Assembly: GCA_016217545.1 (NCBI GenBank) | Contig: JACRHT010000012.1 | Coordinates: forward strand, 1,116,001-1,180,000 | DNA: 64,000 nt | Reading direction: 5' to 3' | Origin: Opitutia bacterium | Lineage (GTDB): Bacteria > Verrucomicrobiota > Verrucomicrobiia > Opitutales > Opitutaceae | Shown here: positions 9,912-18,831 of the stretch, piece after piece | How positions within the stretch are numbered: position 1 is the first letter of the stretch | How the letters are laid out: the number at the start of each line of letters is the position of its first letter | Translations under genes and position numbers: made by a program | The notes under the pieces: model-generated | Databases searched by the model: none | Told to the model about the DNA's origin: nothing | Seen by the model: only the letters and a program-made list of their open reading frames with translations

Positions 9912-11389
9912 GGCTGGGTGGCCGCGGGGGCCTTGGTAGCAGGCGTGCGGCGGAAATCGAACAGGGAAAACTTCCAACGGGCCTCACCCGGAGCGCGGCG
10001 CCAGCTGAGCAGGCCGTTGCCGAGCGCGACGCGCGCGCCGGTCTCGGGCGTGGCGCGCGTGCTGAAGAGCGGGCCGAGGTGGAACTCGCGTTCGGTGGCC
10101 GAGCGACGGCGGCTGACGAGGTTCCAGAGGATGTTCCAACGTGTGTCGCCCGGCGCGCGTTGCTCGAAGCGGTAGACGGCGAAGATCGGCGAGTAGAGTT
10201 CGCGGATGGGCTCGTTGTTGGTGAAAAGGACTTCGAACGGGCTGAAGAGCTGGAATTGGCGGCGGCCAGCGCCGTTGTCCCACGCGCTGAAAAGCGGCCA
10301 GAGGTGGCGCTTCGAAGCGGGCGCGGCGGCGGGGTTCGAGAGGCTGCGTTGCTCGTGCGACCAGTAGACGACGAGCAGGAACTGATTTCGCTCATGCGCG
10401 ACGCCCTGTTCGTTCCACTCGGCGTGGCGGACGAGCGGCCAGAGCACCCAGGTCTTGTCGTAACCCTTCACGACGCTGTGGGTGTAGAAGGGCGCCCAGC
10501 GGTTCACGGTGCGGTTGTCGCCGCGGCCCTGCACGAGGAACGGCCAGAAGTAGCGCGTCTCGTGGTAGCGGTGCGGCGCGGTGCGGTCGGTGTAGCCGAA
10601 GAACGGCCAGAGATAGTTCTCGTCGACGAAGCCCGGGGCGGTGGCGCGGGTGTAGAACGGCAGGAAGCCGAGGTTGGTGCGCGTGGCGCCAGCGGGGTCG
10701 TCGAGCTGTTTCGTCTGTTGGTAGATCAGCGGCCAGAGAAAATACCGATTGTCGTAGTCGTTCGGACGCGCGACGTGACCGAAGAGCGGCCACGCCTCGA
10801 AGCCGTGGTGGCCGTTGCCGCCGGTGAAGCGCAGGAAGGGCCACGGCACGTAGTTCGTGTGGCGTCCGTCCTTCTCGACGCGGAAATAAAGCGGAGCTGC
10901 GACCCAGCTGAGGCGGTCCTTGCCGAAGCGGTGCTTCACCTCGCCGGCGATCGGCAGCAGCGCGCGGTAACTCGTCGCCGGGTCGCCGGTATCACGCGAG
11001 AAATAGAGCGGCCACACGTCGAAACCGCGGACGGGATGGCCGCCGTCGCTGGCGAGGCCGGGCTGGCGGCGGAAATTGATCAGCTGAAAGAACGAGAACG
11101 ACTCGCTCGCGGCGTCGTGCTGCCAGGAAAACAGCGGGTAGAGAAAATAGGAGGCTTCGCGGTCGGCTTGCTTCGTGTTGAGGAACAGCGGGCGCCAGGC
11201 GCGGATTTCCTTGCCGTCGGCGGTTGTGCGCTCGGCGAGGAGCGGGCCGAGGCCTTGTTGCGCGGTGACTTCGCCGGTCTGGTCGTCGACGGTCGCGACG
11301 CGCAACGGCCAGCCGTTGAGTTCGGCGCCGCGGAGCGGTAGCGCGAACCCGGCCGCGGCGAGGAGCCAGAAGGCGAGTCGAGACTTCAT
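9908..11389 (-). CDS. Exported protein of unknown function with repeated WPLF/WPFF motifs, head of the mla operon
   Basis: This is a 493-residue protein with a clear Sec signal peptide (MKSRLAFWLLAAAGFALP, then LRGAE). The mature part is rich in Trp, Pro, Phe and Tyr and repeats a short motif about a dozen times: RPLFLNT, LYPLFSW, VWPLYFS, APLYFRV, VPWPFLR, AWPLFGH, LWPLIYQ, LPFYTRA, LWPFFGY, FWPFLVQ, APFYTHS, VLWPLVR, LWPLFSA. The spacing of 25-45 residues suggests a repeated beta-hairpin or beta-barrel fold in the periplasm or outer membrane. I do not recognise a named family. Its stop overlaps the mlaE start by 4 bp, so it is the first gene of the mla operon, and a role as outer-membrane or periplasmic partner in lipid transport is inferred only from this. 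The ATG at 11389 was chosen for the signal peptide. Confidence 0.75.
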   Translation of the reverse strand: MKSRLAFWLLAAAGFALPLRGAELNGWPLRVATVDDQTGEVTAQQGLGPLLAERTTADGKEIRAWRPLFLNTKQADREASYFLYPLFSWQHDAASESFSFFQLINFRRQPGLASDGGHPVRGFDVWPLYFSRDTGDPATSYRALLPIAGEVKHRFGKDRLSWVAAPLYFRVEKDGRHTNYVPWPFLRFTGGNGHHGFEAWPLFGHVARPNDYDNRYFLWPLIYQQTKQLDDPAGATRTNLGFLPFYTRATAPGFVDENYLWPFFGYTDRTAPHRYHETRYFWPFLVQGRGDNRTVNRWAPFYTHSVVKGYDKTWVLWPLVRHAEWNEQGVAHERNQFLLVVYWSHEQRSLSNPAAAPASKRHLWPLFSAWDNGAGRRQFQLFSPFEVLFTNNEPIRELYSPIFAVYRFEQRAPGDTRWNILWNLVSRRRSATEREFHLGPLFSTRATPETGARVALGNGLLSWRRAPGEARWKFSLFDFRRTPATKAPAATQP

Positions 11390-12956: not shown

Positions 12957-13661
12957 ATGCCTGCGGCCGTGAATGCGAGTGTAAATTCTCCCGCCAAAGA
13001 TGATGGCGACCCGCTGCGTGGGCAGCGGGCGATCATTGTGGAGGACCAGAAACTCTTCGCGGATTTCCTTGCCGGTTGTTTTCGCGAATGGGGGATCGAA
13101 GTGTTGCTCGCGACGGCGTCGGGTTCAGCCGGACTCGCCGCGGTGCACCAGATGCGCCCGGACCTGCTGATGCTGGATTTTTCCCTGCCGGATATCGACG
13201 GGCTGGAGGTCGCGCGGCAGGTGCTGACGGACCGGAGTTTCTCCGCGATGAAGGTGATCGGCATCTCCTCGCACCGGGACCCGTGGACGATGTTGCAGGT
13301 GCAGAAGCTGGGCCTGCACGGTTTCGTGGACAAAATGGATCAGAGCGCCGAGACGCTGCGGACGGCCGTCATTTCAGTCGTGAGCGGAAATGTTTTCTAC
13401 ACCAGCGCGGTGGTGGAATCGAGCGCGCGGCTGCGGCGCGACCCGAAGGCGTTCAACCGGGTGCTCTCCGACTACGAGTTGAAGATCCTCGCGCTGATCG
13501 GCCACGCGATGACCGATGAGGAGATCGCGGCGGAGCTCGGCATCAGTCCCTCGACCATGCAGTCGCGGCGGCGCGACATCATGAAGAAGCTCGACGTCCA
13601 CTCGACGCCGAAGCTGATCCACTACGCGATCGCGAACGGCCTCACGCGGGCTCGCAATTGA
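12957..13661 (+). CDS. NarL/LuxR-type response regulator
   Basis: This is a 234-residue transcription regulator. A receiver domain (about 22-140) begins RAIIVEDQKLFADFL and has the phospho-acceptor Asp in LLMLDFSLPDIDG. A LuxR-type helix-turn-helix (about 170-230) follows: LSDYELKILALIGHAMTDEEIAAELGISPSTMQSRRRDIMKKL in consecutive pieces. The ATG at 12957 is used; another Met at 12972 is possible. The gene ends inside the 3' end of the convergent hybrid kinase gene (20-bp overlap), which is the likely, though unproven, signalling partner. Confidence 0.88.
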   Translation: MPAAVNASVNSPAKDDGDPLRGQRAIIVEDQKLFADFLAGCFREWGIEVLLATASGSAGLAAVHQMRPDLLMLDFSLPDIDGLEVARQVLTDRSFSAMKVIGISSHRDPWTMLQVQKLGLHGFVDKMDQSAETLRTAVISVVSGNVFYTSAVVESSARLRRDPKAFNRVLSDYELKILALIGHAMTDEEIAAELGISPSTMQSRRRDIMKKLDVHSTPKLIHYAIANGLTRARN

Positions 13662-16600
13662 GGCGCGTCAGCGTGTCGTGCAGGGAGGTCCAATCCTGCG
13701 TCAGCTCGGTCGCCAAGGGGCGGGCGGCGGCCCAGTTGCCTTGCTGGCACAGGCGCTCGAGCTGGAGCGCACGCTTCATGGCGGCGGCGGCGTGAAGGAA
13801 GCCGAAACGGCCGGCGAGTTTGTGGGCGGCGCGGGCGCTATGCTGCCGATCTTCGGCGGTGAGGCCGGCGTGCAGCTCTTCGAACTCGGCTCGGGCGGCG
13901 GTGGAGAACTCGGCGAGTTCGGCTTCGAGGGTCTGCGCGTGCTGGCGGGCGAGCGTTTGGAGATTTTCGAGGGGATCGAAGCTGTCGCGCGAAGGGAGCA
14001 CGAAGTGCCGGGCGTCGCCGGGCGAGCGCGATTGGATGGCTTCGGCGAGCGCTGAGCCGAGCCGTTCTTCGCCGATGGGTTTGCTGAGGAAGCCATCCAT
14101 CCCGGCGGCCAGGCATTCGCGGCGTTTCTCGACGGTGGAGTAGGCGGTGGTGGCGATGATGAGCGGCTGGCGTTGCTGCGTCGTCTGGCGGATGCGCTTC
14201 GCCAAGGCGGGGCCGGTGGTGTCCGGCATGTCGTAGTCGAGGAAGACGACGTCGGGATGCTGCGTGAGGGCGGCGAGGGCGGCGTCGGCGTTGGCCGCGC
14301 GGAGGACTTGGAAGCCGCGGCGTTCGAGCATCGTGGCGAGGGCGACGAGGTTGTAGTCCTCGTCGTCGACGATGAGCGCGAGCTTCGGCAGGTCGACGAT
14401 GGTCTGCGTCGCGTTGTCGAGGGTGACGGGTGCCGCGATCGGGAGCTCGAGGGAAAGGAAAAAGGTGGAGCCTTCGCCCGGGGCGCTCTCGACCCAGGCG
14501 TTGCCGCCCATCTTGGTGGCGAGGCGCCGGCAGACGGCGAGGCCCATGCCGGTGCCCGGGATGCGGTTGCTGCGGGCGCCGGCGCCGCGCTCGAATTTTT
14601 CGAAGATGCGTTCCTGCTCCTCGAGGGGAATGCCGGGGCCGGCGTCGGAGACGGCGAAGGTGAGGACGGCGTTCTTTTCGCCGACGATGCGCGCCCACAC
14701 CGTGACGTCGATGTCGCCTTGCGGGGCGTATTTGATCGCGTTGCTGACGTAGTTGAGGAGGACCTGGCGGATGCGGCGGGCGTCGCCGATCAGGCGGGGC
14801 GGCACGGAGGGACCGAGGGCGAACTCGACTTTCACGCCTGCGGCGGCGCTGACGGGCGAGGTGATGGCGGAGACGGCGTCGAGCAGTTCCGCGGGCGAGA
14901 ACGGCTGCGGGTCGAGCTCGATGGTGCCGGATTGGAGTTTGGAGAAGTCGAGGATGTCCTCGAGGAGCGAGGCGAGGTGGGTGGCGCAGTGGCGCAGGAG
15001 CCCGAAGCGGTAGCGGCCCTCCTCGTCGAGGTGGGAGATGTCGATCGCCGCGGAGAGGCCGACGACGCCGTTCATCGGGTTGCGGATCTCGTGGCTCATG
15101 CTGGCGAGGAAGTCGTCCTTGGCGGCGTTGGCTTGGACGAGTTCGGCAGTGCGTTCGGCGACCTGTTTTTCGAGTTCGAGGTTGCGGGCGCGGATGCGGC
15201 GTTCGCGGATGCGGATGGCGCCGAGCAGCGCAGCGATGAAGAGAGCGGCGTAGGCTGCGTAGGCCCACACGGAGCGATACCAAGGAGGAAGGATGGTAAA
15301 CGAAATCGCGACGGGCTCGCTGACGAGGCCGCCGGGGTTGATGGCGCGGGCGGCGAACGTGTAGTCACCCTCTCTGAGGTTGGAGTATTCGAAGGACGTC
15401 TCGTCGGCGGGCGGCCCCCATTCGGGCGAGCCGGGGCCGAAGCTGACTTGGAAACGGAGCGCCGGACGCATCGTTATGTCGGGCGAACTGACCCGGAGCT
15501 TCGGGCGTCCATCATGGCTGAAAACGGCGTCGACGGGCGTCGGCGGGGCCAACTCGACCCGGGGCGGACTTGGTTTGGACCACTCCGGCAATTCTTCGGG
15601 GCGAGCCTGCATCAGGCCACCCTCACCGCCGATCCAGAGGGTGTCAGTGCCGCCCTCGCGTGTGACCGCCAGCCGGGTGATGCCGCCGATGGACTGCAGG
15701 CCGGGAACAAGAATATCCCGCAAACGTTGAACTTCACCGGTGGGCGATAGATCGAGCGCCGCTATGCCGGTCTCGAATCCCACGGGAGAGTTTGACCGCG
15801 TGAAGACTACATACAATCGCCGCTCATCGGGTGAAAGCGCGGCCAGCGAAACGGTTCCAGGCAATGAGCCCAGTTTTGCCGGCTCGCGCCCGGGCCGAAG
15901 CAGAAACAGGGTGCGGTTCGCCAAGGCAATGATGTCGTGCTCGCGCCGGATCACGGCGCTGGGCGCGCCACTCGAGTTGCGAAACACCGCTGGGGCATCA
16001 GCGGGAACAAATCGTCCATCCGACCAAGTGAACCGGCGCGGTGGCGCCCAGAACGAGGCGGTCCAGAGGTCATGGGCCTCGTCGAAAGCGAGGGTGTGGA
16101 CCGGCCCGAGCGAGACCTGATATTCGGTCGACTGCCATTTTCCACTGACGGGGTCGCGCGCGAGTTGAACCTGGCCGCGAGCGTGCACGGCGAGGAACTG
16201 GTCGGGGTTCCACAAGGGCAGCAGCGCCGTGAAGGAGCGCCCGGACAAGTCACAGATGGTTTCGGTTCGATTCGGGCGCGCGAGGTCGATTCCGCCGAAA
16301 CGGGCTACCACCGCGCTGCCGTCGCTGCGCGCGGAGAGCGTGTAGAAATTGTTAGGTGTCGTCGGGACGTTTTCGAGTGCGAGGCCGGCCGATCCTGCTG
16401 CCGCGCGGAAGAGCCGGTTGATGGCCCCGATCCATACGGCGCCATGTGGGTCGACAGCTAGGGCTCCGATGCTCGGTTGCGGATCTTCGCGCGCGAGCGG
16501 GACGCGGGCGACGGCTCCGGCGCTATCGAAGCGGAGCAGCCCGAAGGCGTTGCACACCCACAGTTGTCCGTCTCGGTCGAGAAAAGGCTGCTGCGTGTCG

Positions 16601-17469
16601 CCGAGAAGGGGCACCTGACGGAGGAAATTCCCCTCGCGGTCGACGATGGAAATGCCGCCGCTGAGAGTGATCAAGGCGCGGTGTCTGGCGGTAAGCTCCA
16701 CCACTCCGGTGAGGCGATGGACTTGGGTGAATTCCCCCAGCGCTGTCGGCGAGATCTGTTTCGATTGCGGACCAATCGACCGGAAGCCGCGGTTGGAAGC
16801 GCCAATCAGCTGACCGTCGCGTTCCTCCAGCCAGAATAGCCCCTTGTCGGGCAACTCGGCGGGTTTCGCGACCTGCTTCGGGCCGTCCTCGTCAATGCGA
16901 TAGAGGCCGCTTTCGAGGTGGTGAAACCAGAGCGCGTTGTTGAAGCGCACCGGAAAAAGCCGCACTGCGGTCGGATAGTTCCAGACGCGGAAACGCGAAC
17001 CGTCCCAGCGGAGAAGGCTGTTGCTCGTGACGAGATAGATGCCGCCGGCAGTCGGGTAGCAGGCCCAGACGGTGTGAAAATCGGCGGCCGAGGAAGGCAC
17101 CTTGTCGCGCAATGATACAACGTGCGGTGGCGCGGTGGGACTGAGCTCGATGTAACCGAAGTCGCCGACGCCACCCCACCAAAGCCGTCCCTCGTGATCG
17201 AAGTCCAAACGGGCGATCGCGAATCCGGTGAGGAGGGTGGACCAGGACTTGCCGTCGAAAGCCACGAGGCCTCCACTGCAACCGACGTATATGACTCCCG
17301 TATTCGGGTGCTGGGTGACAAAGTAGGCAGTTCCATGGTTGCCCATGTCGCGGGCCGTGAAGCGTTGCAGCAGCGGTTCGCCCCAAGCTACGTCGTTCCA
17401 CGCGGCATGAACGATCGGCGCGGAGGCGAACGCGAGGGCAAGCCACAGCCATGTGCGGAGGCGAAACAT
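13642..17469 (-). CDS. Hybrid histidine kinase with periplasmic two-component-regulator propeller, receiver and HPt domains
   Basis: This is a 1,275-residue membrane sensor. After a signal peptide (MFRLRTWLWLALAFASAPIV) comes a long periplasmic region of beta-propeller repeats (GVIYVGCSGGLVAFDG, GRLWWGGVGDFG, GAVWIGAINRLF, DTLWIGGEGGL), then a Y_Y_Y domain (REGDYTFAARAINPGG) and one transmembrane helix (WAYAAYAALFIAALLGAI). A HisKA domain has the phospho-His in MSHEIRNPMNG, and the HATPase domain shows QVLLNYVSNAIKYAP, DAGPGIP and GTGMGLAVC. A receiver domain (LALIVDDEDYN, VVFLDYDMPD) and a C-terminal HPt domain (SARAAHKLAGRFGF) follow. Similar propeller-kinases sense polysaccharide breakdown products in Bacteroidota. 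The ATG at 17469 is preferred to a GTG at 17517 because of the signal peptide. Confidence 0.9.
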   Translation of the reverse strand: MFRLRTWLWLALAFASAPIVHAAWNDVAWGEPLLQRFTARDMGNHGTAYFVTQHPNTGVIYVGCSGGLVAFDGKSWSTLLTGFAIARLDFDHEGRLWWGGVGDFGYIELSPTAPPHVVSLRDKVPSSAADFHTVWACYPTAGGIYLVTSNSLLRWDGSRFRVWNYPTAVRLFPVRFNNALWFHHLESGLYRIDEDGPKQVAKPAELPDKGLFWLEERDGQLIGASNRGFRSIGPQSKQISPTALGEFTQVHRLTGVVELTARHRALITLSGGISIVDREGNFLRQVPLLGDTQQPFLDRDGQLWVCNAFGLLRFDSAGAVARVPLAREDPQPSIGALAVDPHGAVWIGAINRLFRAAAGSAGLALENVPTTPNNFYTLSARSDGSAVVARFGGIDLARPNRTETICDLSGRSFTALLPLWNPDQFLAVHARGQVQLARDPVSGKWQSTEYQVSLGPVHTLAFDEAHDLWTASFWAPPRRFTWSDGRFVPADAPAVFRNSSGAPSAVIRREHDIIALANRTLFLLRPGREPAKLGSLPGTVSLAALSPDERRLYVVFTRSNSPVGFETGIAALDLSPTGEVQRLRDILVPGLQSIGGITRLAVTREGGTDTLWIGGEGGLMQARPEELPEWSKPSPPRVELAPPTPVDAVFSHDGRPKLRVSSPDITMRPALRFQVSFGPGSPEWGPPADETSFEYSNLREGDYTFAARAINPGGLVSEPVAISFTILPPWYRSVWAYAAYAALFIAALLGAIRIRERRIRARNLELEKQVAERTAELVQANAAKDDFLASMSHEIRNPMNGVVGLSAAIDISHLDEEGRYRFGLLRHCATHLASLLEDILDFSKLQSGTIELDPQPFSPAELLDAVSAITSPVSAAAGVKVEFALGPSVPPRLIGDARRIRQVLLNYVSNAIKYAPQGDIDVTVWARIVGEKNAVLTFAVSDAGPGIPLEEQERIFEKFERGAGARSNRIPGTGMGLAVCRRLATKMGGNAWVESAPGEGSTFFLSLELPIAAPVTLDNATQTIVDLPKLALIVDDEDYNLVALATMLERRGFQVLRAANADAALAALTQHPDVVFLDYDMPDTTGPALAKRIRQTTQQRQPLIIATTAYSTVEKRRECLAAGMDGFLSKPIGEERLGSALAEAIQSRSPGDARHFVLPSRDSFDPLENLQTLARQHAQTLEAELAEFSTAARAEFEELHAGLTAEDRQHSARAAHKLAGRFGFLHAAAAMKRALQLERLCQQGNWAAARPLATELTQDWTSLHDTLTRLNCEPA

Positions 17470-17623
17470 GGGGAAAATGTGGGCGCAGAATGCCGCGACG
17501 GCCAATCGGAGAAACACCTAAATTCAGGCGTTGGAGGCGGGAATGAGAGCGCCGATGGCACCTCACAGCAGGCTAATTCCGCACGTCAGTTACTGAGCGC
17601 GATCACAGTAACATCCGCCCGCC

Positions 17624-17791
17624 ATGAAAAAACTCCACCGTTTCATTCTCGGGCTGGTCACCAGCCTCCTTTTATCGGCCGGTTTCGTTCGCGCGGCCGA
17701 AGTCACCTCCGGCACGCCCGCCGTCATCCAATCCCCCGCGCCGTTGCTGCCCGATCTCCCGTGCGAAGTCACGTCGTGCAACATCCTCTGA
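17624..17791 (+). CDS. Small signal-peptide-bearing peptide, candidate YcaO substrate (RiPP precursor)
   Basis: This 55-codon gene encodes a peptide with a typical Sec signal (MKKLHRFILGLVTSLLLSAG, then FVRA-AE as a plausible signal peptidase I site). A mature part of about 31 residues remains, ending LLPDLPCEVTSCNIL. The motif EVTS occurs twice (EVTSGTP and CEVTSC), and the tail has two Cys four residues apart with Thr and Ser between, the residue types YcaO enzymes cyclise or thioamidate. The stop codon is 9 bp before the YcaO-like start, so the two are surely one transcript. No strong Shine-Dalgarno is seen. Whether it is a RiPP precursor, or merely a small exported protein needed by the enzyme, is inference. 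Confidence 0.65.
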   Translation: MKKLHRFILGLVTSLLLSAGFVRAAEVTSGTPAVIQSPAPLLPDLPCEVTSCNIL

Positions 17792-17800
17792 TTCGGTTCC

Positions 17801-18691
17801 ATGTTCAACTTCGCTGCTTTTCGTTACCGAGAGGTGATGGCCCCCGAAGGCGGGCCGATCGAGCGGGTCGTATGCGCTGAGACGCCGGTGCTCGGGGCGC
17901 GTTGGTTTGCGGCCAACGCGCACCTGAAGCCTGAACTCAAATCGAACACGTGGAAGCGCCAGGTGTTCGGGAACGCCAACGGCAGCGGCACGGATCGCTC
18001 GCCGCTGGTCGCGCGCTTCAAGGCCATCTCGGAGGCGATGGAGCGCTGGGCGCACTGGCAGACGTTCCGCAGCGGCGAGGGCGCGCGCTACGGTTTCGAC
18101 GTCGATCCGTCGAGCAACGGCATGGCGGCGTTTCCGGGCCTGTTTGCCCGTCAAGCGCGGCATGGCGCGCTGATGGAAGCGGCGGAACGGTTCAATTTGA
18201 TGAACTGGTGGGAGGGCAGGCTGCTGGCCCATCCCGTGAACTCGCCGCGGCCGGACGTGCAGGCTTTCGCGATCGAGTCGGAAGCGCCCGGCGTGACGGT
18301 GGTGCTGCACCGCCGGAGCGATCGCGGCCATCACGCCTACGGGCATGCGTCGGCCGATACCGTCGAGGCTGCGTGTTGGAAGGCCGCCGTCGAACTCGAG
18401 CGGCACGATGCGGTGGTGGGTTACTACGTCTTGGCGGGGCACGCGTCGCACGAGCGTGATGCGATGCATCCTATCGAGCAGCGCAGTCTGTTTTTCGCCT
18501 CGGACGCGGGCTACGATCTCTTCTCGTCTCGCGTCTGCGCGGGCCTCAGTGGCACGCGCGCCAAACCGCGCCTGGTGTTCGACGGGGTGGTGCCGGGGCC
18601 TTGGCAGGGCTACGCGCACGTCTGGCGTGTGTTGTTCGAGCCGCCGAGCCTGCGCTTCCTGTCGCGCGAAGTGGAATACTTCCTCTGGTGA
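17801..18691 (+). CDS. YcaO-like protein (short, stand-alone)
   Basis: This 296-residue protein keeps the YcaO layout. A first ATP-binding segment reads SPLVARFKAISEAMERWAHW (family ...ASALGEAxERY), a second reads GMAAFPG...ALMEAAERFNLMNWW (family GLAAG...ALxExxERDAxxxWW), and a third reads YGHASADTVEAACWKAAVELE. YcaO enzymes use ATP to activate peptide amides, making azolines or thioamides. This copy is shorter than the usual 400 or more residues and lacks the Pro-rich C-terminus of azoline cyclodehydratases, ending LRFLSREVEYFLW. Ser of the first motif and Asp of the second are replaced (Lys, Phe), so activity is uncertain. No E1-like, TfuA, protease or transporter gene is adjacent. ATG 17801 follows the peptide gene by 9 bp. 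Confidence 0.75.
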   Translation: MFNFAAFRYREVMAPEGGPIERVVCAETPVLGARWFAANAHLKPELKSNTWKRQVFGNANGSGTDRSPLVARFKAISEAMERWAHWQTFRSGEGARYGFDVDPSSNGMAAFPGLFARQARHGALMEAAERFNLMNWWEGRLLAHPVNSPRPDVQAFAIESEAPGVTVVLHRRSDRGHHAYGHASADTVEAACWKAAVELERHDAVVGYYVLAGHASHERDAMHPIEQRSLFFASDAGYDLFSSRVCAGLSGTRAKPRLVFDGVVPGPWQGYAHVWRVLFEPPSLRFLSREVEYFLW

Positions 18692-18757: not shown

Positions 18758-18831
18758 TGGTGCGGGCAGACGGAATCGAACCGACGATACCTGTTTGGAA
18801 GACAGGAGTTTTACCACTAAACTATGCCCGC
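18758..18831 (-). tRNA. tRNA-Gly (anticodon TCC)
   Basis: On the minus strand the acceptor stem GCGGGCA/TGCCCGC closes a normal cloverleaf. The anticodon stem-loop is CCTGT-CTTCCAA-ACAGG (anticodon TCC, reading GGA/GGG), and the T-arm is GTCGGTTCGATTCCGTC. Discriminator A and CCA are encoded. It is convergent with the YcaO-like gene. Confidence 0.95.

Follow-up and report, generated by a model that had tools for sequence, protein, structure and literature searches.

A conserved YcaO-linked peptide gene and its neighboring hybrid histidine kinase: a candidate peptide signaling unit in relatives of Opitutus

A gene for a 55-codon peptide and a gene for a short YcaO-like enzyme lie next to each other in the window, i.e., the whole stretch of 64,000 nucleotides analyzed here, which comes from a genome of 5.09 Mb. 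The pair was confirmed to be real. The initial annotation had described a two-gene unit. Since a hybrid histidine kinase and usually also a response regulator accompany the precursor and ycaO genes, the arrangement is larger than that, and the earlier interpretation as a whole is partly supported. The best single reading, and one that we hold to be fairly probable, is that the modified peptide binds the linked kinase as its ligand and acts as autoinducer of the unit. The signaling role is suggested by the anatomy of the locus.

Both ORFs were found where they had been placed, with a gap of 9 nt between them (Table 1). The ATG at 17469 was chosen as start of the kinase gene, the listed ORF beginning at a GTG at 17517. 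The kinase and response regulator genes are positioned tail-to-tail. Beyond the tRNA-Gly gene, an ORF from 18927 resembles, by appearance, a type II secretion/pilus inner-membrane protein.

Table 1. Features of the unit and its immediate surroundings, in positions of the window.
Feature	Position	Strand	Basis
Precursor peptide gene, 55 codons, ATG start	17624..17791	+	ORF list, relatives, profile, pN/pS
Stand-alone YcaO, 296 aa	17801..18691	+	PF02624, structure model, fold comparison, ATP-site residues
Hybrid histidine kinase	13642..17469	-	Pfam, sensor model, BT4663 match, conservation next to ycaO
Response regulator, receiver and LuxR/GerE HTH	12957..13661	+	Pfam, linkage; start picked by eye
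Candidate operator dyad AACACCTAAATTCAGG, located between the precursor gene and the divergent kinase gene	17513..17528	.	Dyad scans
tRNA-Gly (tcc), shortly past ycaO	18758-18831	-	

Conservation of the peptide and YcaO genes

A protein search of 95 related genomes gave a match in 33, counting the genome of the window and one whose match contains stop codons, and a profile search gave matches in 14 of 387 genomes of the phylum and in 40 of 372 genomes of the order. The gene set is patchily distributed and was seen only in this order among the genomes searched; beyond the phylum the search comprised only a short-pattern scan together with phage and plasmid collections. Named records carrying relatives (56-57% identity) are Opitutus sp., Oleiharenicola sp., and Verrucomicrobiota bacterium. 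A phage or plasmid origin was rejected, as neither collection gave a match, and so was a defense system: PADLOC found no match for the YcaO or the peptide and one weak match for the kinase, in its receiver region.

The study set comprised 65 loci, of which 40 came from the initial searches and 25 were held out. Precursor genes adjoining ycaO were accepted in 62 of them, 50 found by profile and 12 picked by eye. The first 40 loci contributed 34 by profile and 3 by eye, and the held-out loci 16 by profile at E ≤ 1 (15 of them below 0.1) and 9 by eye. No precursor was accepted at L061, at L068, where ycaO is broken, or at L069, a pseudogene with stops. The initial annotation had regarded absence of the small ORF beside YcaO homologs as fatal to its proposal; the ORF was found beside nearly all of them, and the peptide and the short stand-alone YcaO do form a conserved unit. 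The first precursor profile was built from 27 leaders, so the matches of these 27 are in-sample, and the alignments A1 (37 sequences) and A2 (33 sequences) both came from the first 40 loci. When the 95 whole genomes were scanned with the precursor profile, 30 of them yielded matches at E ≤ 0.001, 34 in total. All except one adjoin a ycaO copy (33 of 34, one copy broken); the last is found where a contig ends, next to a kinase and a regulator gene. At this threshold the divergent precursors of G022, G046, and G053 escape the A2 profile. The distance from the precursor stop to the ycaO start is ≤50 nt in 42 of the 62 loci and ≤253 nt overall.

The 62 precursors are 39-104 aa long. The window peptide has a hydrophobic Sec-like leader at approximately residues 1-24 (by eye), followed by a variable C-terminal part with PCEVTSC. 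The leader consensus is MKxxxxxxxGLxSSLLLxxGxxxAAxxxDP. Its N-terminal helix is conserved in sequence, to a degree exceeding the needs of a Sec signal alone. The pN/pS of the leader, pooled over 14 chosen pairs and uncorrected, was 0.39, which indicates purifying selection; outside the leader it ranged from 0.17 to 1.01 by pair, the value of 0.17 belonging to the repeat region of L059/L104. Because an ORF accepted as related adjoins ycaO in 62 of 65 loci and the leader is under purifying selection, the small gene is more than a chance ORF. Co-conservation with the enzyme, a conserved leader and a variable core are found together here, as is required of a RiPP precursor and its enzyme.

By a crude rule 40 of the 62 precursors were found to be Sec-like, the window peptide among them, and 22 failed. 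In the window's clade several of the failing leaders are without an N-terminal Lys/Arg (e.g., L031, L041, L043, L095, and L097), while L109, L110, L111, L114, and L115, which also fail, form one clade with short, more amphipathic-looking leaders. The Sec signal originally assigned to the precursor is plausible for the window peptide, but it is not universal. A lipoprotein reading was rejected, a lipobox-like Cys being seen by eye in only a few leaders.

Cys is present in 56 of the 62 C-terminal parts, compared to 14.4 expected from the Cys frequency of neighboring proteins. Most cores hold one or two Cys and six hold none. At one site within a single clade, L111 and L115 have PCEV where L109 and L114 have PTEV, and the L031 repeat has Thr at the position of Cys in the L095 repeat. 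Judged from these sequences, such an exchange at one site seems to fit better with Cys/Thr cyclodehydration than with a disulfide. Retention of Cys/Thr in the variable part had been expected, and its loss had been named as a point against the proposal. Most precursors do retain Cys, or Thr in its position; the six cores without Cys are the part that does not hold. Tandem cores were found in 6 of the 62 precursors, with four copies in L095, three in L031, L059, L104, and L116, and two in L064. In L055 a second, shorter precursor-like ORF is located downstream of ycaO (10009-10134). That the peptide is the substrate of the YcaO is very probable and well supported by the comparison of loci.

The enzyme of 296 aa, earlier described as short, stand-alone and YcaO-like, matched PF02624 above the cut-off (30.9 vs. 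25.7 bits), and no second PF02624 gene was found in this genome. Of the 37 aligned members, 28 match the family at E ≤ 0.001. An NCBIfam search gave matches below cut-off only, and a sequence-profile search against PDB chains gave no match for the YcaO, whereas comparison of folds did. The structure model has a mean pLDDT of 92.5, and about 260 residues align with McbD and LynD. The Z values were 16.6 for McbD, 16.5 for LynD, 15.8 for Methanopyrus YcaO, 14.3 for Methanocaldococcus YcaO, and 12.3 for E. coli YcaO. Since matches within 1 Z are tied, they do not choose the chemistry. On this model a YcaO fold is well supported, which removes the concern that the fold might be missing. E199, E202, and R203 of E. 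coli YcaO, annotated as a ribosomal protein S12 methylthiolation accessory factor, correspond by alignment to E126, E129, and R130 of the window enzyme and are kept in 36, 36, and 35 of 37 members, respectively. E75 and E78 correspond by motif to E78 and E81 (37 and 36 of 37), and E191 corresponds to Q118. These E. coli residues are those that we take to bind ATP/Mg. Two family residues had been thought to be replaced. The E191 equivalent is indeed Gln, while the main Glu/Arg positions are retained; as 31 of 37 relatives have Gln at this position, the change belongs to the whole family.

The linked kinase, the regulator and the promoter dyads

When the ORFs at 40 loci were clustered, the YcaO and the long kinase were each found in 39 and a response regulator cluster in 32. 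Among the clusters listed these three are the widely shared families, the others being mostly antisense kinase frames or confined to close relatives. Transporter, protease, immunity or metal genes were not seen among the shared neighbor families listed for the 40 loci. In one clade, genes with TonB-dependent receptor domains are located downstream of and convergent with ycaO (L109, L111, and L116); such receptors might carry the product over the outer membrane.

In 62 of 65 loci the kinase gene starts upstream of the precursor gene and runs divergently from it, a linkage as strict as that of the enzyme. The exceptions are L054 and L118, where too little contig is present, and the degenerate L069. 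The chain consists of an N-terminal signal-like stretch, a predicted periplasmic sensor, a presumed TM helix, and HisKA, HATPase_c, receiver, and Hpt domains, the last four all above the Pfam cut-off in one chain. Y_Y_Y (PF07495) reached 19.5 bits, under its cut-off of 26.6. The sensor model (764 aa, encoded at 15178-17469 on the minus strand; pLDDT 90.9), in which the C-terminal helix 734-763 is taken as the TM helix, was matched by the sensor domains of BT4663, BT3049, and BT4673, and Foldseek against BT4663 gave an E of 5e-27 and a TM-score of 0.63 at 14% identity. The model points to a periplasmic sensor of the BT4663-type fold in the kinase.

The regulator carries a receiver and a LuxR HTH domain (Pfam) and was found linked in 51 of 65 loci (33 of 40 in the first set and 18 of 25 held out), counting the partial regulator of L039 at a contig edge. 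Six contigs are too short to include it (L031, L044, L049, L054, L060, and L118), and the flanks retrieved for eight other loci showed no regulator gene (L064, L068, L103, L109, L110, L111, L114, and L115). Its position shifts while the linkage holds: it is located downstream of ycaO in L063, L066, and L108, and L067, L106, L113, L117, and L119 carry it on the same strand as the kinase. Pairs of a same-family kinase and a LuxR-type regulator were also seen with no ycaO or precursor nearby at G010:C424 (L141; 1.4 kb flank) and G021:C18 (L142), and possibly represent receivers that lost or never had a signal of their own.

The YcaO and kinase trees agree, with a patristic r of 0.894; for 51 of 54 loci, the relative closest by YcaO was also one of the three closest by kinase. 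In both trees the two copies of G035, G482, and G535 group by type rather than by genome, while the G092 pair are sisters. The trees took 54 of the 62 kinase ORFs; L035 was excluded together with seven ORFs below 1150 aa (two off contig and five short or interrupted). The agreement is partly explained by shared descent of a linked block.

Between the window and G007 the unit kinases are 39% identical in the sensor and 92% in the kinase domain, and the precursor cores 32%. A control pair of hybrid kinases, located approximately 40 kb from the unit in both genomes (L151 in G000 and L152 in G007) with no peptide or ycaO gene, has 30% identity in the sensor and 92% in the kinase domain. Co-divergence of sensor and peptide as proof of ligand specificity was rejected because the control pair diverges equally, and fast sensor divergence is therefore no evidence for the unit. 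From the sequences it looks as if sensor domains were replaced very fast in the G000 and G007 genomes.

Dyad statistics cover 61 of the 62 precursors, those with less than 120 nt upstream being skipped. Of the 61 loci, 15 have TACC-N8-GGTA in the 200 nt preceding the precursor gene (0.05 expected; 1 of 61 in the control downstream of ycaO), and this dyad recurs in 22-bp steps, three in L051 and two in L057. Within the window's clade, 13 of 17 loci have CACCT-N5/6-AGG (0.05 expected; control 0 of 17); it is placed at -106 to -110 in 12 of the 13, and the copy of the window is the dyad at 17513-17528. These ratios overstate independence because the patterns were picked after viewing the same sequences and the loci are related. 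The dyads resemble NarL-type 7-2-7 sites. A sigma-70 scan did not find a promoter-like site.

With one mismatch or less, TACCGGAATTCCGGTA has 1 to 8 copies in seven of nine genomes, and the reversed-pattern control has none except one in G035. It occurs as a single copy at the precursor promoter in both G027 and G039, and as a single copy approximately 2 kb downstream of ycaO in G709. G719, G666, G018, and G035 hold 5, 6, 7, and 8 copies, respectively, each set including the precursor promoter, while G000 and G007 have none. A regulon defined by the dyad was rejected, since no shared theme was visible among the genes around the other copies (20 stretches by eye). AACACCTAAATTGAGG, which is close to the precursor-promoter dyad, was seen upstream of a recA-like gene (by appearance) in G000 and G007 (L143 and L145). 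Near matches to the window motif in these two genomes also lie in terminator-like hairpins (by appearance), and the near matches at both kinds of place weaken the operator reading in the window's clade.

A proposed signaling circuit and its alternatives

In the proposed circuit the conserved N-terminal helix of the precursor would act as leader for the neighboring YcaO and double as Sec signal in most members. Using ATP, the YcaO would modify the C-terminal Cys/Thr/Ser region, most likely to azolines. The core would then be exported and cut out of the precursor, and the product would bind the periplasmic sensor of the divergent hybrid kinase. Phosphate would pass from the kinase receiver through Hpt to the LuxR-type regulator, which would act on the precursor-promoter dyads and close the autoinduction loop. 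We infer the modification and its chemistry, the export, the ligand binding and the protein that binds the dyads.

Several features of the loci speak for such a circuit: the pairing in 62 of 65 loci, a kinase and regulator linkage that survives rearrangement, the agreement of the trees, the cores, the BT4663-like sensor and the dyads. Against it count the transporter and protease genes unseen among the shared neighbor families listed, the 22 of 62 leaders that fail the crude Sec rule, a heparin sensor among the solved relatives of the sensor, the 12 of 62 precursors picked by eye and the regulator not found in eight loci. The product also has to cross the Gram-negative outer membrane, and we know of no peptide sensing by BT4663-type sensors. 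For the circuit in its full form, i.e., a cassette in Opitutus relatives in which a BT4663-like kinase would read an azoline-bearing, Sec-exported pheromone and which would provide strain-specific, self-contained Gram-negative quorum sensing, we see the chances as evenly balanced.

The exported RiPP could instead have a different function, antimicrobial or metal-binding like that of bufferins, with kinase and regulator only controlling its production on another cue. Cys-containing cores with a Sec-like leader do resemble bufferins, regulators are common next to RiPP genes, and TonB-dependent receptor domains were found in genes adjoining the unit (by Pfam in L109 and L116, by appearance in L111). 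However, most cores have only one or two Cys, immunity, transport or metal genes are not among the shared neighbor families listed, and the kinase linkage is as strict as that of the enzyme. We regard this explanation as possible, though rather unlikely.

An improbable alternative is that the peptide is a kinase signal or accessory and the YcaO acts elsewhere or makes a non-azoline change (thioamide, amidine or macrocycle). The annotation of E. coli YcaO as an accessory factor of S12 methylthiolation involves no RiPP role, Gln occupies the E191 equivalent, and six cores are without Cys, all of which would suit it. Against this alternative speak the precursor that adjoins ycaO in 62 of 65 loci, in 42 of 62 with a gap of ≤50 nt, and the Cys/Thr exchange at one site. 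The short length of the ORF, the weak Sec features in some members and the sigma-70 scan without a promoter-like site would also suit a regulatory leader ORF or a chance ORF in the ycaO 5' region that gives no secreted product. Given the pN/pS values (0.39 for the leaders, 0.17 for the L059/L104 repeat region), the tandem core repeats and the genome-wide specificity of the profile, this is hardly credible.

If true, and subject to experimental confirmation, the circuit would represent a novel way for bacteria to signal by peptides, in which a YcaO product gains a signaling role and a glycan-type hybrid sensor reads a peptide. It would provide a Gram-negative peptide communication system with separately testable parts and a minimal RiPP pathway, general Sec export replacing a dedicated transporter and protease, and its quorum-sensing parts would be unlike those of agr or ComQXPA.

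Comparison with known systems

No description of such a unit was found in the open-access literature searched, subscription papers being mostly outside its scope. According to the available part of one study (PMC10352776), the Bacteroidales RiPP clusters BGC4, 5, 7, and 8 are near suspected signaling proteins, BGC8 has a YcaO, BGC5 has a kinase and a regulator, and its authors consider the nearby signaling proteins a hint of a possible non-antimicrobial role. These clusters differ from the present unit by having peptidase-containing transporters and GG-type precursors, and in the same part of the source a conserved unit of YcaO, precursor and propeller kinase is not described for them (PMC10352776).

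Sec signals are rare among bacterial RiPPs and export was demonstrated for bufferins, as stated in the accessible portion of PMC12452194. Since bufferins carry them, Sec-type RiPP leaders are not unprecedented; the initial annotation had described typical leaders as cytoplasmic. As far as that portion describes them, bufferins and MNIO-modified RiPPs (PMC12452194) likewise have a Sec-like precursor adjoining the modifying enzyme and a Cys-containing core; the unit described here differs in having a YcaO as modifier, short cores and a dedicated two-component system. Bufferins are characterized by an MNIO enzyme with a DUF2063 partner; here the modifying gene next to the precursor encodes a YcaO. 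Stand-alone YcaO proteins of bottromycin biosynthesis are postulated to heterocyclize (PMC4979651); the literature consulted also includes PMC7298704 and PMC10885120.

The window enzyme has the fold, the ATP-site Glu/Arg and PF02624 in common with the YcaO superfamily (McbD, LynD, and the archaeal and E. coli proteins). It differs in its length of approximately 295 aa, in the Gln at the E191 position, in that no partner gene was seen in the unit among the ORF families listed for the 40 clustered loci, and in being linked to a kinase. Azoline-forming TOMM/LAP clusters, by comparison, carry a partner (E1-like/ocin-ThiF) or dehydrogenase gene. The unit kinase and the BT4663-type hybrid sensors share a predicted periplasmic sensor fold, HisKA, HATPase_c and a receiver. 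BT4663 senses heparin/heparan sulfate, according to the title of its structure, whereas the unit kinase ends in Hpt and has a separate LuxR-type regulator and a linked peptide gene.

As here, a single locus of the agr and ComQXPA systems encodes a precursor together with its modifying enzyme, a sensor kinase and a response regulator. Signaling of the agr type uses an AgrB-type membrane endopeptidase and an AgrD precursor. The present unit has a YcaO as modifier and a Gram-negative host, and its precursor, enzyme and sensor domain show no apparent homology to those of the two systems.
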